A stretch of DNA of 40,476 bases from positions 1 to 40,476 of IMG/VR virus record IMGVR_UViG_3300049433_000085; one strand, written 5' to 3'. Position numbers and translations under genes: made by a program. The first letter of the stretch is position 1. Every line of letters begins with the position of its first letter. The notes under the pieces were generated by a model. That model was not told the DNA's origin. It saw nothing but the letters and a program-made list of their open reading frames with translations, and did not search any database. Source of the DNA: a virus. Positions 27,142-36,057 of the stretch are shown here, piece by piece.

Positions 27142-27771
27142 TCAACCGGCATGGGCCAGCGTGGAAAGCGAGAGTGCAGTCTGCGACGTAGCAGGATTTC
27201 CCCACTGACTGGCCATCGCGTAGCCCAGCCCCTCCTTCGTTCGGGACCGCTTCTTCCATCGATCGGGGCAGGGCGACACGAAGTGTACCTTTGGCCGGCG
27301 GCCCTCCACGATGTTCGTGGGCGTCAGTTGAGGAAGATTCTTCAGCCATAAGCAGGTTGCCTTTGTCTCGCCATGGCCGAACCACCATGGATGCACGATT
27401 TGCGACCAGGGCGGTAGTTTGGCGTGCCGATGAGGAATGGGATTCTCAATTGCGATCTTGGGGATTCCGCTTCTCCACAGCTTCGAGAAGAAATGCTCTG
27501 CATCCACCATCTGCGCCCACCTGGCATCGTCAATGACTGTTCCGCGACCGCCGGTGTACAGCCATCGGACCCCGGCGTTTGTCAGGTACGTGCAGGGCGG
27601 ATGAAACACCGCGAGGTCCCAATCCTCGTTCAGATGGTCCAGGACGCTGCCTACGATGTGCTGGCCTGGTCGTTCGGTCTCCAGCAGATCGCAGCTCCAG
27701 GCGTCGTGGCCGAAGCTTGCGAAGGCATCGCGCACCACGCCCGAGAATTCGCAGCCCACGAGAACCTTCAT
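27142..27771 (-). CDS. small DNA cytosine-methyltransferase-like protein
   Basis: 209 residues. Starts MKVLVGCEFSGVVRDAF (SAM-binding type), followed by AWSCDLL (acidic residue after strand 2), HPPCTYLTNAGVRW with the catalytic-type PPC at 58-60, AIENP at 107-111 (the ENV-like motif), and a conserved end (PWWFGHGETKATCLWLKNLP, PDRWKKRSRT). This is a short C5-methyltransferase-like family frequent in phages, with little room for a target-recognition domain. It could modify DNA against restriction. Activity is not shown by sequence alone. Confidence 0.8.
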   Translation of the reverse strand: MKVLVGCEFSGVVRDAFASFGHDAWSCDLLETERPGQHIVGSVLDHLNEDWDLAVFHPPCTYLTNAGVRWLYTGGRGTVIDDARWAQMVDAEHFFSKLWRSGIPKIAIENPIPHRHAKLPPWSQIVHPWWFGHGETKATCLWLKNLPQLTPTNIVEGRRPKVHFVSPCPDRWKKRSRTKEGLGYAMASQWGNPATSQTALSLSTLAHAG

Positions 27772-31389: not shown

Positions 31390-31652
31390 GACAGCATGTC
31401 CTCGATCAGCCAATCGCGGATCTCCTGCGGCAGTGGATTGACGGCATGACTGGCTTGCGCTCGTTCCAACAGGAGTTTCGCTTCATCAAGCTTTTGTCGT
31501 TTGATGACCAGCTCCTGCGCAATCCAGATCAGGTTCATCGGATCCCAATAGGGCGACAGAGTGCCGTGGGTCGCGATGTCCTTCAGACAATCGAGACCGA
31601 TGCCACCCCGCGCACGCTTCTCGGCCATGAGCATTCGTTCACTCGATGTCAT
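31386..31652 (-). CDS. helical hypothetical early protein
   Basis: 88 residues, GGAG 8 nt before the ATG. Helices throughout (MLMAEKRARGG, LDCLKDIATHG, MNLIWIAQELVIKRQKLDEAKLLLERAQAS, LPQEIRDWLIEDML). Overlaps the PurA/PurZ-like gene by 14 nt and so belongs to its transcript. Function unknown. Confidence 0.6.
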   Translation of the reverse strand: MTSSERMLMAEKRARGGIGLDCLKDIATHGTLSPYWDPMNLIWIAQELVIKRQKLDEAKLLLERAQASHAVNPLPQEIRDWLIEDMLS

Positions 31653-32682
31653 TGCGGGTGCTCCCGTAGCTTTTCATTGCCGACATGCACGGTGGCTCGA
31701 GTTGGTCACAGTGGGTGAGCACAATCCGTGGAGTTAGAGGAGATGTGCCGAAGTCCTCAGCGCACCGTTTGTGTAGCGCGCTCACATCCAATGGCGCAAA
31801 GCGGAGCCGTCCCTGCCACGGATGGTCGAGATTCGTGTTGTCCTCGAATCGTAACCGCGTGCTTTCTCCCGGCAGCGGACCCGCTCCGTGGCGCGTCAGA
31901 TACGTGCGGGACATGTAGTAAGGCTCGATATCGGTGATACCGGCCTGCGCACATAGCACCCGGACATTCTTCATGCCGGTGTTCGAACTCGTTACATGCG
32001 GGAAGAATTCCTTATTGCTCTGGTCGAGCAGCAGCCCTTGTGCGCCCTCGAAGACCGGCTCTTTGCACTGGGCAATGCCGAGCGGGTGAACGGCATCGGC
32101 GAACGCCCAGCAGCCTTCAATGAATTTCACGATCATCGCCGGTTCAACAATCGGCTTACCGGTACGGAACTCGGCGTACTTGCCGCAGATCTGCCGCAAG
32201 CGCTCTTCCAAATTCGAGACCTTGTTCCACAGGTCGCTCATCGTGATCTTGAGGCCGGGGATCTGGGAGCGTTCGATGGTCTCCCGGAACCCCACGCCAA
32301 CGCTGCCATGGCGGCCGGCGCCGCGCTTTTCCTCCAGCGCCTGGTTGATCATCATGTCCGCGAACGTCGTCACCAGACAGTCCGGGTGCGCGTACAGGAC
32401 CGGATCGAAACCCAGCGCCAGCAACTCGGTTCGCTCTTTGAAGAAGACGATGGGATTACAGACGAAGAACTGAGACAGGAACGTCGGCACCCCGAGAAAT
32501 GAACCCGAGCCAAAGTGCTGGAAAACATGCCGGTCGCCCTCGGGCGTGACGACCGTATGCCCCGCCTGTGCGCCGCCATTGAATCGAACCACCATCCCCG
32601 CGCCTTGGGCACACAGGTAGTCCGTCATGAGGCCTTTCCCCTCATCGCCGAAGTTGGCTCCAATGACGACGCGCGCGCGCAT
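31639..32682 (-). CDS. adenylosuccinate-synthetase-family enzyme (PurA/PurZ-like)
   Basis: 347 residues against about 430 for bacterial PurA. The short form matches phage PurZ and archaeal PurA. Motifs: GDEGKG (12-17), RFNGGAQAGHT with catalytic-type His42, FEGAQG (211-216), HVTSSNTG (229-236), TRHGAGP (263-269), GRLRFAPLD (291-299), THCD (323-326). PurA joins Asp to IMP; PurZ joins Asp to dGMP on the way to 2-aminoadenine DNA. Asp13 and the guanine-type Asp326 look PurA-like; characterised PurZ replaces the former. The start overlaps the VWA stop (TAATG) with GGAGG upstream. Confidence 0.9.
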   Translation of the reverse strand: MRARVVIGANFGDEGKGLMTDYLCAQGAGMVVRFNGGAQAGHTVVTPEGDRHVFQHFGSGSFLGVPTFLSQFFVCNPIVFFKERTELLALGFDPVLYAHPDCLVTTFADMMINQALEEKRGAGRHGSVGVGFRETIERSQIPGLKITMSDLWNKVSNLEERLRQICGKYAEFRTGKPIVEPAMIVKFIEGCWAFADAVHPLGIAQCKEPVFEGAQGLLLDQSNKEFFPHVTSSNTGMKNVRVLCAQAGITDIEPYYMSRTYLTRHGAGPLPGESTRLRFEDNTNLDHPWQGRLRFAPLDVSALHKRCAEDFGTSPLTPRIVLTHCDQLEPPCMSAMKSYGSTRNDIE

Positions 32683-33593
32683 TAGGCCGGACCTCCGATC
32701 AGGCGAGGGGAGCGGCCTTTCGGGAGGTTCTTGACCGCCTCATGGACCACGCGGGAGCCCGAGCCCCAACCGGCCGCGGAGTCTCCGGCATCGCGGCCTT
32801 CGGCGACCTCGATAGCGGATACGATGGTCTCGGCAAGCTTTTTGTGATCCGCCAGCTTGATCACGCGCTGACCCAGCAACTTCTCCCAGCTGTTGACGAC
32901 GGCGTTCAACTCCCGGCGGGCATAGTCGCCTTCCTGAATGACGACGTGATAGACGTCGTACATTCGTTGGGCCAGTTGCAGTGTGTCGAGTGGTGATAGA
33001 TCAGCCTCGATATCATCCCCGATGAATCGCTTGATCTGGTCGCGAGTGAGGGCGTGAGGGGCTTCCTCGTCGCCGACCGTGAACAGATACCCGCGCTTGC
33101 CGCGCTTCTCCAAGCTGTCGTGCGCCGTGTGGAATGCCCCGAAGTACCAAGGCAGGTTGTAGCTTTCGAACTTGTTTCCACCGCCCCCGTGCTCGAGGTA
33201 GATCTGTGTCAACTGTTCGATGATTCGCTTATCAGCTTCGAACTGTGAGACCTGCAATGGCGCCTGATCGCAGTTCGCATCTCCAATCGCCATGAACATC
33301 ACGTGCGGGTCGCTGATTGGCTTGCGGTCCAGGATGCCCGTGAACAGAGTTCCGAGCCCTTCTCGGGCGATCACATCGGCCAGCATGCCCATACTGCCGG
33401 TCACATCGAGCCCGACAATCACGGGTGTCGAGTTGGGATTGTCCACGCTGTCGCGTGACTCGCGGACCTTCACACCCAGCGGATCGAGGTTCCTGTGCAT
33501 CCCGCGCGAGGTATAGATCTTGTCAGTCGTCTTCCCCACGGTTGAAGCCGTGAAGGTCCGGTATGCACCGGGATCAAATGTTCCACCACCCAT
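32682..33593 (-). CDS. von Willebrand factor A (MIDAS) protein
   Basis: 303 residues, with AAGGAG before the ATG. The VWA domain covers about 55-215: strand then DVTGSMG (63-69, MIDAS variant DxTxS), a second motif around GDANCD (103-108), GGGGNKFESYNLPWYFGAFHTAHD, and GYLFTVGDEEAP. VWA domains bind a metal ion and a partner protein. No signal peptide or extra domain. A family of such stand-alone proteins is known to me from phages, but its role is not. Coupling to the PurA/PurZ-like gene suggests joint function. Confidence 0.85.
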   Translation of the reverse strand: MGGGTFDPGAYRTFTASTVGKTTDKIYTSRGMHRNLDPLGVKVRESRDSVDNPNSTPVIVGLDVTGSMGMLADVIAREGLGTLFTGILDRKPISDPHVMFMAIGDANCDQAPLQVSQFEADKRIIEQLTQIYLEHGGGGNKFESYNLPWYFGAFHTAHDSLEKRGKRGYLFTVGDEEAPHALTRDQIKRFIGDDIEADLSPLDTLQLAQRMYDVYHVVIQEGDYARRELNAVVNSWEKLLGQRVIKLADHKKLAETIVSAIEVAEGRDAGDSAAGWGSGSRVVHEAVKNLPKGRSPRLIGGPA

Positions 33594-33873: not shown

Positions 33874-33980
33874 TTCCAATGCAACACCGCATATAGCGGC
33901 CACACCCAGATCACCAACAGCGTTCCAATCCATCCCAGCACGTTCAGTGCGAACTCAACTCGACGCTTCACGATGGCCAT
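33870..33980 (-). CDS. tiny single-TM peptide
   Basis: 36 residues, ATGA-coupled to the next gene. One hydrophobic helix (FALNVLGWIGTLLVIWVWPLYAVL) after a basic start (MAIVKRRVE), the layout of a membrane peptide. No good ribosome site (GGGA is only 2 nt away). Overlaps the integrase fragment by 26 nt. Provisional. Confidence 0.4.
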   Translation of the reverse strand: MAIVKRRVEFALNVLGWIGTLLVIWVWPLYAVLHWK

Positions 33981-34281
33981 TTCCCAGAACGGCGACGAGC
34001 GGCATCGAATTCAAGTATTCGGCAAACCATGTCAGCCGTTCCTTTTCGCGCTCTTTGTCGCGTCCACCAGCCTCGGCGTACCAGCGCTCGACCGTTTGGG
34101 CCCAGGTGTATTTGGGTCGTTCTCCGAGTCGGACTTGCCGCCACAGATCAGACCTAAGACGGGCTTCGAATTCGTTCGCGGCTTCGCGGTCAGTTGTCTC
34201 AGTCGTTCGTCTAATTTTGATACCGCCGACCGAGAATCGGACCCACCAGTACGGGCTCTTTGGATGGCGATAGAGTGGCAT
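33955..34281 (-). pseudogene. truncated tyrosine-recombinase integrase (N-terminal part only)
   Basis: 108 residues from ATG 34281. Recognisable arm-binding domain and start of the core-binding domain of phage integrases: LYRHPKSPYWWVRFSVGGIKIRRTTETTDREAANEFEARLRSDLWRQV, TWAQTVERWYAEAGGRDKEREKERLTWFAEYLN. The catalytic domain (Arg...HxxR...Tyr) is absent; the frame ends a few codons after the core-binding start, and no such domain is seen downstream. The phage has therefore lost site-specific integration by this enzyme. The fragment overlaps the excisionase-like gene in another frame. Confidence 0.8.
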
Positions 34282-34451
34282 GCGCGAGCCCTTTGTCGTT
34301 CTCGAAGCCATGCAAGCAGGTCCTCTTCGATGAAGACCCACTGCCGCCCCGGCTTATCGGCAGGCACGATACCTGCGCGCGCTTTGCGCATCAACGCATC
34401 CTCGCTCATGCGAAGCAACGCCGCTGCCGCCTGGGTACCGATCGTGCTCAT
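34032..34451 (-). CDS. excisionase-like MerR-type HTH protein
   Basis: 139 residues from ATG 34451 (ATGA overlap upstream). Residues 1-52 form a winged HTH of excisionase type (STIGTQAAAALLRMSEDALMRKARAGIVPADKPGRQWVFIEEDLLAWLRER). A conserved-looking tail follows (ACHSIAIQRARTGGSDSRSAVSKLDERLRQL). The 3' part runs through the integrase fragment in a different frame for 250 nt. Because the tail resembles that of related phage HTH proteins, I think both frames were once used. Confidence 0.7.
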   Translation of the reverse strand: MSTIGTQAAAALLRMSEDALMRKARAGIVPADKPGRQWVFIEEDLLAWLRERQRARACHSIAIQRARTGGSDSRSAVSKLDERLRQLTAKPRTNSKPVLGLICGGKSDSENDPNTPGPKRSSAGTPRLVDATKSAKRNG

Positions 34452-34639
34452 ATCCTCACCTGCGCCCGCTGGCACCCGGCAAAAGAGCCGCCCCCGATCC
34501 CGCCAGCTTTGCGCTGCCAGTCGATAGCCGCGGCACTCCAGTCCCTCAATCGCACCACGCACTGCGCTTCGGTAGGGAAGTACTCGTACTCCACGGGTGG
34601 GGTTTCGCGCACCAGCAGGATCATGATGAGGACCCACAT
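34448..34639 (-). CDS. small protein with hydrophobic N-terminus
   Basis: 63 residues from ATG 34639, with AGGGGAAG 5 nt upstream; an internal ATG at 34624 is an alternative. Short hydrophobic N-terminus (MWVLIMILLV) then YEYFPTEAQCVVRLRDW, a pattern of small phage membrane or secreted proteins of unknown role. Stop overlaps the next start (ATGA). Confidence 0.6.
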   Translation of the reverse strand: MWVLIMILLVRETPPVEYEYFPTEAQCVVRLRDWSAAAIDWQRKAGGIGGGSFAGCQRAQVRI

Positions 34640-34920
34640 GTTAACTTCCCCTGTTCAAACAATCGCAGGATGGTCAAGAGCACGTAGTACTCGAATTCCT
34701 CGGAGTGTTCCCATTTCTTGGCTTTGTCCCGGGAGAGTTGATCCATCTCCTGATGACACGTGCCACACATATGCGCGCCAACGATGTCCGGTACTTTGAT
34801 CCCAAATCCGCCCCCAAAGGACAGGCGGCGAACGCCGGTGTAATGGCACAACACCACGCCATTGGTAGAGGCGCAACGTACGCATGCTTGGTCCTTCGCG
34901 AGTTTGGTCAAGTCTTTCAC
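34621..34920 (-). CDS. DUF1364/Ref-like HNH-type protein
   Basis: 99 residues. I chose GTG 34920 because GAAGG lies 5 nt upstream and it overlaps the upstream stop (GTGA); an earlier GTG at 34953 would overlap by 37 nt. CVRC...LCHYTGVRRLSFGGGFGIKVPDIVGAHMCGTCHQEMD is the zinc-binding pattern of phage DUF1364-type proteins, related to HNH nucleases such as Ref. Placed next to Bet, a role in recombination is plausible. Confidence 0.7.
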   Translation of the reverse strand: MKDLTKLAKDQACVRCASTNGVVLCHYTGVRRLSFGGGFGIKVPDIVGAHMCGTCHQEMDQLSRDKAKKWEHSEEFEYYVLLTILRLFEQGKLTCGSSS

Positions 34921-35231
34921 GAGCGCCTTCGATTGGCCGATTCGGTGCGCCACACATCCAACGCAATGGTTTCGATGTCACGCTTCGCCCGGAGAGTCTC
35001 GAATGCGACAACCGCCTCAATGTATTGATCGTCGATATTGATCACATCCTCGTGGATTTCGGCTAATGCCTCGCGCTGAGCGACTGAACCTTCGGAACCA
35101 ACAAAGATCCGTTTGCGAACGCGCTTGCGCATGATCTCAGCACGTTCATATGCTCCTCGAGCAGAACCGATCCTTTCCGTGGAGTCACGTAGGAATTCGA
35201 ACGCTTCCTCGGCTCGTTGCTCGGTGATCAT
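34917..35231 (-). CDS. helical recombination-cassette protein
   Basis: 104 residues, 5 nt after bet. Long charged helices (EQRAEEAFEFLRDSTERIGSARGAYERAEIMRKRVRKRIFVGSE, DDQYIEAVVAFETLRAKRDIETIALDVWRTESANRRRS). Proteins of this shape often accompany RecT or Bet recombinases in phages; function unknown, perhaps DNA or partner binding. No catalytic motif. Confidence 0.7.
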   Translation of the reverse strand: MITEQRAEEAFEFLRDSTERIGSARGAYERAEIMRKRVRKRIFVGSEGSVAQREALAEIHEDVINIDDQYIEAVVAFETLRAKRDIETIALDVWRTESANRRRS

Positions 35232-35235
35232 CGTC

Positions 35236-36057
35236 TCAGTGCTCGTCTCTGGCCATCAACAACGCCGTCAGTTTCTTGAAATTCTTCTTCGTGATGATGT
35301 CGCGCTTCGCCAGCTCATCGAGCACGCAGATATACAACTCTTGATGCTTGTTGAGTTCCACCGCGACCTCACGCATCTCGGCGGCGATGGCTTCCTCCTC
35401 CTTGTCTTGATCGAGAATCGACTTGATGTCATCGACCCATTTGTCGCGCAATGACATATCAACCTCGGACAGATCCCCGCGCGGGTCGATCTTCGGCAGG
35501 ACTTTGGCCTCCACCTCAATTACACGCTCGGCCTCGTCCTGGTCGTAGATCCCGACAAATCCGAAAGCCAATCGCGCGGCTTGGATCATCGCTTTGTGAC
35601 GCAGCATGCGGCGCGGATGTGTCTTCCAAGGTCCGACGTTTCGATCAACCTCCTTGAAGTATTCCTTCGTGGCAATCGCATGCGATCGGTCTTTGCGATA
35701 CATGCGGCATTCGATCCACACAGGAATCTGGTTCTGATCCAACTCGCCTTCCGTGAAGTCCATGCCGTCAAACTGGGGATCAGAGTTGATGATCCGAGAC
35801 CAACCATCCACTCCCACGATAGGGACAATGGCGCCCCCTTGGCTGGGAAACGCATAGATTTCCTTCGTCCACGGGTTGAGCTTGTACTGGTCAGCGACCA
35901 CGCACAAAGCCATGAGTTGCTCGTTGCTCACATCTCCACGAAAAGCAGTTGCTTTCAGCGTGGCGACCATCTTCTCAGGATCCACCCCATAGCGCTGGGC
36001 CATGCGCACGAGTACGGAATTAGACGCCTGCGGGGTGTGTTGGACAATTGCGTTCAT
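35236..36057 (-). CDS. bet: Bet/RecT-family single-strand annealing recombinase
   Basis: 273 residues. Anneals complementary strands in phage recombination. Conserved Bet block at about 40-110: SNEQLMALCVVADQYKLNPWTKEIYAFPSQGGAIVPIVGVDGWSRIINSDPQFDGMDF, then MLRHKAMIQAARLAFGFVGIYDQDEA. Length fits the family. No lambda Exo-type gene is recognised beside it, although a PD-(D/E)XK-type nuclease exists at 39458. Ribosome site GGAG 8 nt upstream. Its leader carries a strong hairpin. Confidence 0.9.
   Translation of the reverse strand: MNAIVQHTPQASNSVLVRMAQRYGVDPEKMVATLKATAFRGDVSNEQLMALCVVADQYKLNPWTKEIYAFPSQGGAIVPIVGVDGWSRIINSDPQFDGMDFTEGELDQNQIPVWIECRMYRKDRSHAIATKEYFKEVDRNVGPWKTHPRRMLRHKAMIQAARLAFGFVGIYDQDEAERVIEVEAKVLPKIDPRGDLSEVDMSLRDKWVDDIKSILDQDKEEEAIAAEMREVAVELNKHQELYICVLDELAKRDIITKKNFKKLTALLMARDEH

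Follow-up and report, generated by a model that had tools for sequence, protein, structure and literature searches.

The gene pair analyzed here raises the question of what a phage does with a relative of the central purine enzyme adenylosuccinate synthetase (PurA) whose gene overlaps that of a VWA protein. The stretch of DNA under study, hereafter the window, is a 40,476-base IMG/VR virus record, and this contig may be a fragment. A first interpretation drawn from its letters (the sequence-only reading) had seen an arrangement related to 2-aminoadenine (Z) DNA, with an enzyme either ancestral-like or acting on another nucleotide.

The gene pair of the window

The VWA gene comes first (32682..33593, minus strand, 303 aa) and the PurA-like gene lies downstream on the same strand (31639..32682, 347 aa), its product being assigned by Pfam, PHROG, a tree and active-site residues to a VWA-linked clade of the adenylosuccinate-synthetase family. 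Both open reading frames exist as the sequence-only reading had given them and have one base in common, within a TAATG stop/start overlap (32680..32684, minus strand).

The only PHROG match of the VWA protein was PHROG_2971, of unknown function, and a Pfam scan of this protein gave no family above cut-off. Its AlphaFold model (pLDDT 91.8) is similar to integrin/VWA domains (Foldseek E about 1e-5), and the predicted structure has the Rossmann-like fold of VWA proteins. The MIDAS-like motif D63-V-T65-G-S67 (33393..33407, minus strand) was invariant at D63, T65, G66 and S67 in 62 relatives, as was D175. The protein thus fits a DxSxS-type metal motif with a further loop residue, metal binding being predicted, and its earlier identification as a VWA (MIDAS) protein is borne out. 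The N-terminus reads MGGGT (33579..33593, minus strand), and a Met-Gly start was observed in 235 of the 245 rows of the VWA family, repeats and fragments counted.

Other genes of the window are described here for orientation. The VWA gene is closely preceded by an integrase-like N-terminal fragment of 128 aa (33955-34341, minus strand; PHROG_10426), with no recognised catalytic domain after it in the window, and an excisionase-like ORF was found at 34032-34637. Together, they suggest that the phage is temperate and that its integrase is broken or split in a different way. Genes for a DNA methyltransferase-like protein (27142-27771), an HNH endonuclease-like protein (34621-34953) and a RecT/Bet annealing protein (35236-36057) are all on the minus strand, like the pair.

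Pairing of the two genes in phages, plasmids and bacteria

A tblastn search of annotated phages hit 218 records with the enzyme and 207 with the VWA protein, in nearly identical genera, and the hosts or sources of the phages with both included Mycobacterium (cluster C), Rhizobium, Vibrio and a faecal phage. The VWA gene was upstream on the same strand in the four phage records opened. In profile-guided IMG/VR scans, 77 of the 80 loci found through the enzyme and 74 of the 75 found through the VWA protein carried the two genes on one strand, the two locus sets overlapping in contigs; the neighbourhood that the sequence-only reading saw in one phage therefore recurs in others. The exceptions were mostly contig ends, together with one locus with reversed gene order (L047), one with the genes ~6 kb apart (L053) and one without a VWA gene within the 1 kb available upstream (L087).

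Among 84,980 genomes of bacteria and archaea, a VWA profile found 479 loci, and the enzyme gene was directly downstream of the VWA gene in 78 of the best 80 of these. On plasmids, the comparison of two lists showed the enzyme in 20 of the 21 records with a VWA gene. Bacteria had a median intergenic gap of 24 nt and viruses one of 20 nt, with an overlap in 21 of 106 viral pairs; gene calls in the loci are mechanical. We also observed a correlation between the pairwise distances of the VWA proteins and those of the enzymes (r 0.66, against a maximum of 0.10 in 500 permutations, relatedness not being removed). Overall, the unit was seen again in ~100 further phage contigs and, among bacteria, in about ten phyla; its distribution is sparse, with 3 of 289 Alphaproteobacteria having it, the query genome itself included. 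The pairing is far beyond chance, and we infer that the two genes encode a single functional module. No description of a pairing of VWA and adenylosuccinate synthetase was found in the open-licence literature.

Phylogenetic position of the enzyme

The enzyme matched Pfam Adenylsucc_synt (PF00709) above cut-off (E 9.5e-36) and PHROG_1211 (E 9.5e-57), a family labelled '2-aminooxy adenylosuccinate synthetase'. By contrast, it was far under the cut-off of all NCBIfam PurA models (102 bits against 402 for the PurA equivalog) and of the NCBIfam PurZ model (42.8 against 300). In a tree of 82 sequences, made by a quick method and containing long branches, the VWA-linked enzymes formed one branch (SH-aLRT 99), with viral and bacterial members intermixed, apart from PurA (90) and from PurZ plus PurZ0 (99). 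The enzyme of the window groups neither with bacterial PurA nor with PurZ/PurZ0. As far as the tree goes, it belongs to a third, well-supported clade of the family. The earlier distinction from ordinary PurA was therefore upheld and the affinity to PurZ/PurZ0 was not. An ancestral-like PurZ is not supported either, since the clade sits on a long stem and has derived residues.

PHROG_1211 appears to merge PurZ/PurZ0 with the VWA-linked clade. Some 190 genes of cluster C mycobacteriophages carry, or would get, a 2-aminoadenine-type label that their residues do not support.

Active-site residues of the enzyme

Residues were compared in an alignment of 204 sequences, comprising 180 VWA-linked members, 15 PurA and 9 PurZ/PurZ0. 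The clade shares with PurA the fold, the P-loop GDEGKG and, in PurA numbering, Asp13, Lys16, His41, Gln224, Thr239 and Arg305. The window enzyme has its P-loop with catalytic Asp13 and Lys16 at 32632..32649, and a QAGHT motif (32554..32568) in which catalytic His42 is kept and Gln39 stands for PurA Asn38 (these and the following motifs are on the minus strand). GSVG (32296..32307) has Val128 for PurA Thr129, most relatives having Cys, and RHGAG (31879..31893) has His265 for PurA/PurZ Val273 near the ribose, a His found in 100% of the phage and bacterial groups. Further on, QGRLRF (31798..31815) represents a remodelled aspartate loop, and THCD (residues 323-326; 31705..31716) replaces the guanine-specific TKxD, with the Asp kept and the Lys lost. 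The length of the enzyme, its Asp13 within GDEGKG, His42 and THCD are all as the sequence-only reading had described them.

Unlike PurA, nearly all members of the clade have Gln for Asn38, Cys or Val for Thr129, His for Val273 and Gln for Thr301, four positions that were constant across all 24 PurA, PurZ and PurZ0 sequences used. As a result, the pocket signature at positions 13/38/129/273/301/305 was DQCHQR or DQVHQR in 169 of 180 VWA-linked members, DNTVTR in 15/15 PurA and SNTVTR in 9/9 PurZ/PurZ0. In the aspartate loop of the clade, besides the change of Thr301 and the retention of Arg305, residues 298-300 are deleted and Arg306 is replaced by Phe or Tyr. Arg303 is not conserved in the VWA-linked family, the window enzyme itself having Arg in that column, and Arg138 of the window enzyme is invariant in the family and does not align with Arg143. 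The enzyme also differs from PurA by a shorter C-terminus. In the structure of S-2L PurZ, residues equivalent to Asn38, Thr129 and Val273 form the lining of the dGMP pocket and the loop with Thr301 is in contact with aspartate (PMC8342488; the residue correspondence is our own); in PurA, both aspartate and the ribose O2' are bound by Arg303 (PMC8342488). With the catalytic residues retained and the pocket and loop contacts replaced, the activating chemistry appears to be kept and the nucleotide and amine sites rebuilt: judged from the residues, 6-oxopurine activation is preserved with changed contacts to base, ribose and aspartate. To that extent, the earlier proposal of an enzyme acting on another nucleotide gains support, as the pocket residues point to a different substrate.

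These residues bear on the possibility of an ordinary duplicated adenylosuccinate synthetase, in which an IMP/aspartate enzyme would boost the AMP/ATP supply of the phage and the VWA protein would be a folding helper. The Pfam match above cut-off and the six conserved residues from Asp13 to Arg305 are in line with it. However, Asn38, Thr129, Val273 and Thr301 are replaced in nearly all members, every NCBIfam PurA model scores far too low, and a canonical PurA was also present in 15/15 bacterial genomes with the paralog that we checked, which were selected by us for diversity. We consider a plain duplicate unlikely.

The PurZ/PurZ0 enzymes of 2-aminoadenine phages are likewise phage-borne PurA relatives of 340-420 aa, and the label of PHROG_1211 would make the window enzyme one of them. 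Position 13 argues otherwise: Asp was found in 100% of the phage and 99% of the bacterial VWA-linked members, whereas Ser was found in every PurZ/PurZ0 aligned, and the four positions replaced in the VWA-linked clade are kept in PurZ/PurZ0. Asp13 suits hypoxanthine and not guanine, PurZ having Ser at this position (PMC12884076). A 2-aminoadenine DNA is not supported, because its synthesis would start from guanine, a base that Asp13 probably keeps out. The clade is separate in the tree, the NCBIfam PurZ score is low, and its relatives sit in bacterial chromosomes with NAD genes. In addition, PurZ gene clusters contain DatZ/MazZ, and among the window ORFs scanned, in a contig that may be a fragment, no DatZ, MazZ, DpoZ or PrimPol was recognised, nor the companions DutZ and DmtZ. 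Taken together, a PurZ-like enzyme making 2-aminoadenine DNA is almost certainly the wrong explanation, and the Z arrangement of the sequence-only reading is not supported.

In Paenibacillus sp. J5C2022 (L244:10905-13214), an intein-like insertion splits the VWA-linked enzyme gene after ~38 family positions; it matches Pfam Intein_splicing below cut-off.

Bacterial neighbours of the pair

Besides the pair, two families recur at the bacterial loci, a J-domain/kinase-fold protein and an NrtR-type regulator. The J-domain/kinase-fold gene was directly upstream in 57 of 80 bacterial loci. All 16 members of this upstream family that were compared with PF00226 matched the J domain, and the predicted structure (pLDDT 90.4) had a DnaJ-PKA chimera as its top Foldseek match, followed by many kinases; in an alignment by eye, the DFG position seems to read GGW. 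Overall, 43 of 110 viral loci have this gene, which is absent from the window and from its 25 close phage relatives (>55% identity). The phages related to the window carry the minimal pair alone.

Other genes were observed in the same slot. Gene 265 of the cluster C Mycobacterium phage Pleione (L003:7544-8674), directly upstream of the VWA gene, is protein-kinase-like (PF00069) and occupies the place of the bacterial J-domain/kinase-fold gene. In further viral loci (L001:6237-6950, L004:6483-7091 and 20 similar genes), the gene directly upstream of VWA encodes a protein with a Met/Gly-rich C-terminus; these genes form two mutually related families of unknown function (13 and 9 loci). They were considered as divergent kinases and rejected, no similarity being found.

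In MoxR AAA+/vWA pairs and Ter-type systems, too, a vWA protein partners a dedicated machine. Here, by contrast, the partner is a PurA-like enzyme, joined in bacteria by the J-domain/kinase-fold protein, and no AAA family was identified in the conserved core of the loci; a MoxR/vWA or Ter-like system was rejected on that ground. An AAA ATPase was present at the Agrobacterium vitis locus, and in the related plasmid it is followed at some distance by a VWA gene of its own. On plasmid pAtS4e of Allorhizobium ampelinum S4 (L296:10479-19023), a second operon, AAA ATPase/DUF5682/DUF4132/VWA, is directly downstream of the pair.

NAD and ADP-ribose context

An NrtR-type regulator, combining Nudix and winged-helix domains, was found within 3 kb in 36 of 80 bacterial loci and between 3 and 10 kb in only 2 more, about half of the loci having no recognisable NrtR nearby. 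In the whole genomes, an NrtR winged-helix match was at most 6.3 kb from the paralog in 10 of 15 and was the sole one of the genome in 7. On Rhodococcus and Tsukamurella plasmids, a Nudix/winged-helix-like gene is directly downstream of the enzyme gene, with weak Pfam scores in Rhodococcus and a match to Nudix alone in Tsukamurella. Literature cited in PMC9503650 describes NrtR proteins as sensors of ADP-ribose.

Several bacterial pairs adjoin NAD genes. In Caulobacter, the pair is part of an NAD-salvage operon, the gene orders being NrtR/VWA/enzyme/NMNAT-NUDIX/NAPRT (L245) and NrtR/VWA/enzyme/NAPRT (L242). In one Clostridium locus (L192), NAMPT and a ribose-phosphate synthetase-like gene with a weak match lie upstream, and another (L199) has a NAMPT of the same family. 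Among the nearest non-core neighbours, microbial PARG (3/108) and NAPRT (2/108) occurred in small counts. These loci resemble NrtR-regulated NAD-salvage operons, but the VWA and PurA-like genes are additional to such operons and the NAD enzymes are missing at most loci. Since bacterial pairs often adjoin NrtR-type sensors, some of them inside NAD-salvage operons, the metabolite handled is probably tied to NAD/ADP-ribose. On the viral side, NAMPT, NAPRT or NMNAT-NUDIX genes were present in 14 of 111 loci, a link that is weakened because jumbo phages often carry NAD genes. In the window, neither a Nudix regulator nor an NAD gene beside the pair was recognised, so that the NAD link comes to it by way of relatives that are more distant.

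The ADP-ribosylglycohydrolase (ARG)-centred systems of Iyer et al. (2022; PMC9503650) also have a Nudix-winged-helix regulator, a vWA protein and a chaperone theme, and vWA domains were proposed there as peptide-binding chaperones; in the present pair, by contrast, the enzyme is a paralog of PurA, with ARG outside the core, and the text of PMC9503650 does not mention adenylosuccinate synthetase. That proposal, the altered aspartate contacts and the invariant MIDAS would fit a macromolecule-modifying system in which the enzyme puts a purine nucleotide on a protein or nucleic acid and the VWA protein picks the target. The active site of the family is, however, built around small substrates, and we judge such a system improbable. 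To our knowledge, no member of the adenylosuccinate-synthetase family acts on macromolecules. A more specific version, in which the VWA protein supplies the amine through its exposed N-terminal glycine, or a VWA-held target does so, giving an N6-linked purine nucleotide on protein under ADP-ribose control, is a long shot; if true, this type of protein modification would be new.

Immune deaminases offer another role for the phage pair, which would restore adenine nucleotides from inosine nucleotides and so reverse purine deamination. RADAR and Cad1 convert (d)ATP to (d)ITP (PMC11645235, PMC9994260), which documents an immunity of this kind, and the better fit of Asp13 with hypoxanthine than with guanine (PMC12884076), the sparse distribution (3/289 Alphaproteobacteria) and the carriage by plasmids and phages all fit an arms-race role. 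Yet the bacterial operons with an NrtR regulator and a J-domain partner suggest a cellular role first, and PADLOC-DB gave no family for the VWA protein or the enzyme, which also led us to reject a known anti-phage defence family. Counter-defence of this kind seems distinctly unlikely.

Proposed function and significance

Overall, the pair looks like an undescribed nucleotide-chemistry module and not like a 2-aminoadenine DNA system. Our best explanation, to which we give about an even chance, is that the enzyme is a purine-nucleotide ligase linked to NAD/ADP-ribose, that the VWA protein is its dedicated partner and that phages carry the two as an accessory metabolic or counter-defence unit. 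The substrate would be a purine nucleotide of the hypoxanthine type from NAD/ADP-ribose metabolism, e.g., the hypoxanthine form of NAD or ADP-ribose, and its 6-oxo group would be phosphorylated with a nucleoside triphosphate, a step most likely retained because the catalytic residues are kept. An amine, which need not be aspartate, would then attack the activated carbon and displace the phosphate. The conserved Arg305 and the part of the nucleotide site that is kept are compatible with IMP and aspartate; the substrate is probably not this plain combination, because the nucleotide and amine pockets differ from those of PurA and PurZ. The VWA protein, plausibly a chaperone or regulator of the enzyme, would be its obligate, Mg2+-dependent partner and would bind, mature or switch it via the metal site, and in bacteria the J-domain/kinase-fold protein may join or assist the two. 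During infection, the unit might maintain or repair nucleotide/NAD pools; alternatively, the phage may benefit from the reversal of immune deamination such as that of RADAR or Cad1.

Hundreds of phage records, among them those of cluster C mycobacteriophages, currently label members of this clade PurA or '2-aminooxy adenylosuccinate synthetase'. The proposal is testable in cultured bacteria (Caulobacter, Clostridium, Massilia) and in phages (Bxz1-like, Rhizobium, Vibrio). The clade, which is widespread, seems to put a central purine enzyme to another use, together with a dedicated partner. If the NAD/ADP-ribose link is true, it would be a third branch of PurA-type chemistry, where NAD-based immunity meets phage metabolism.
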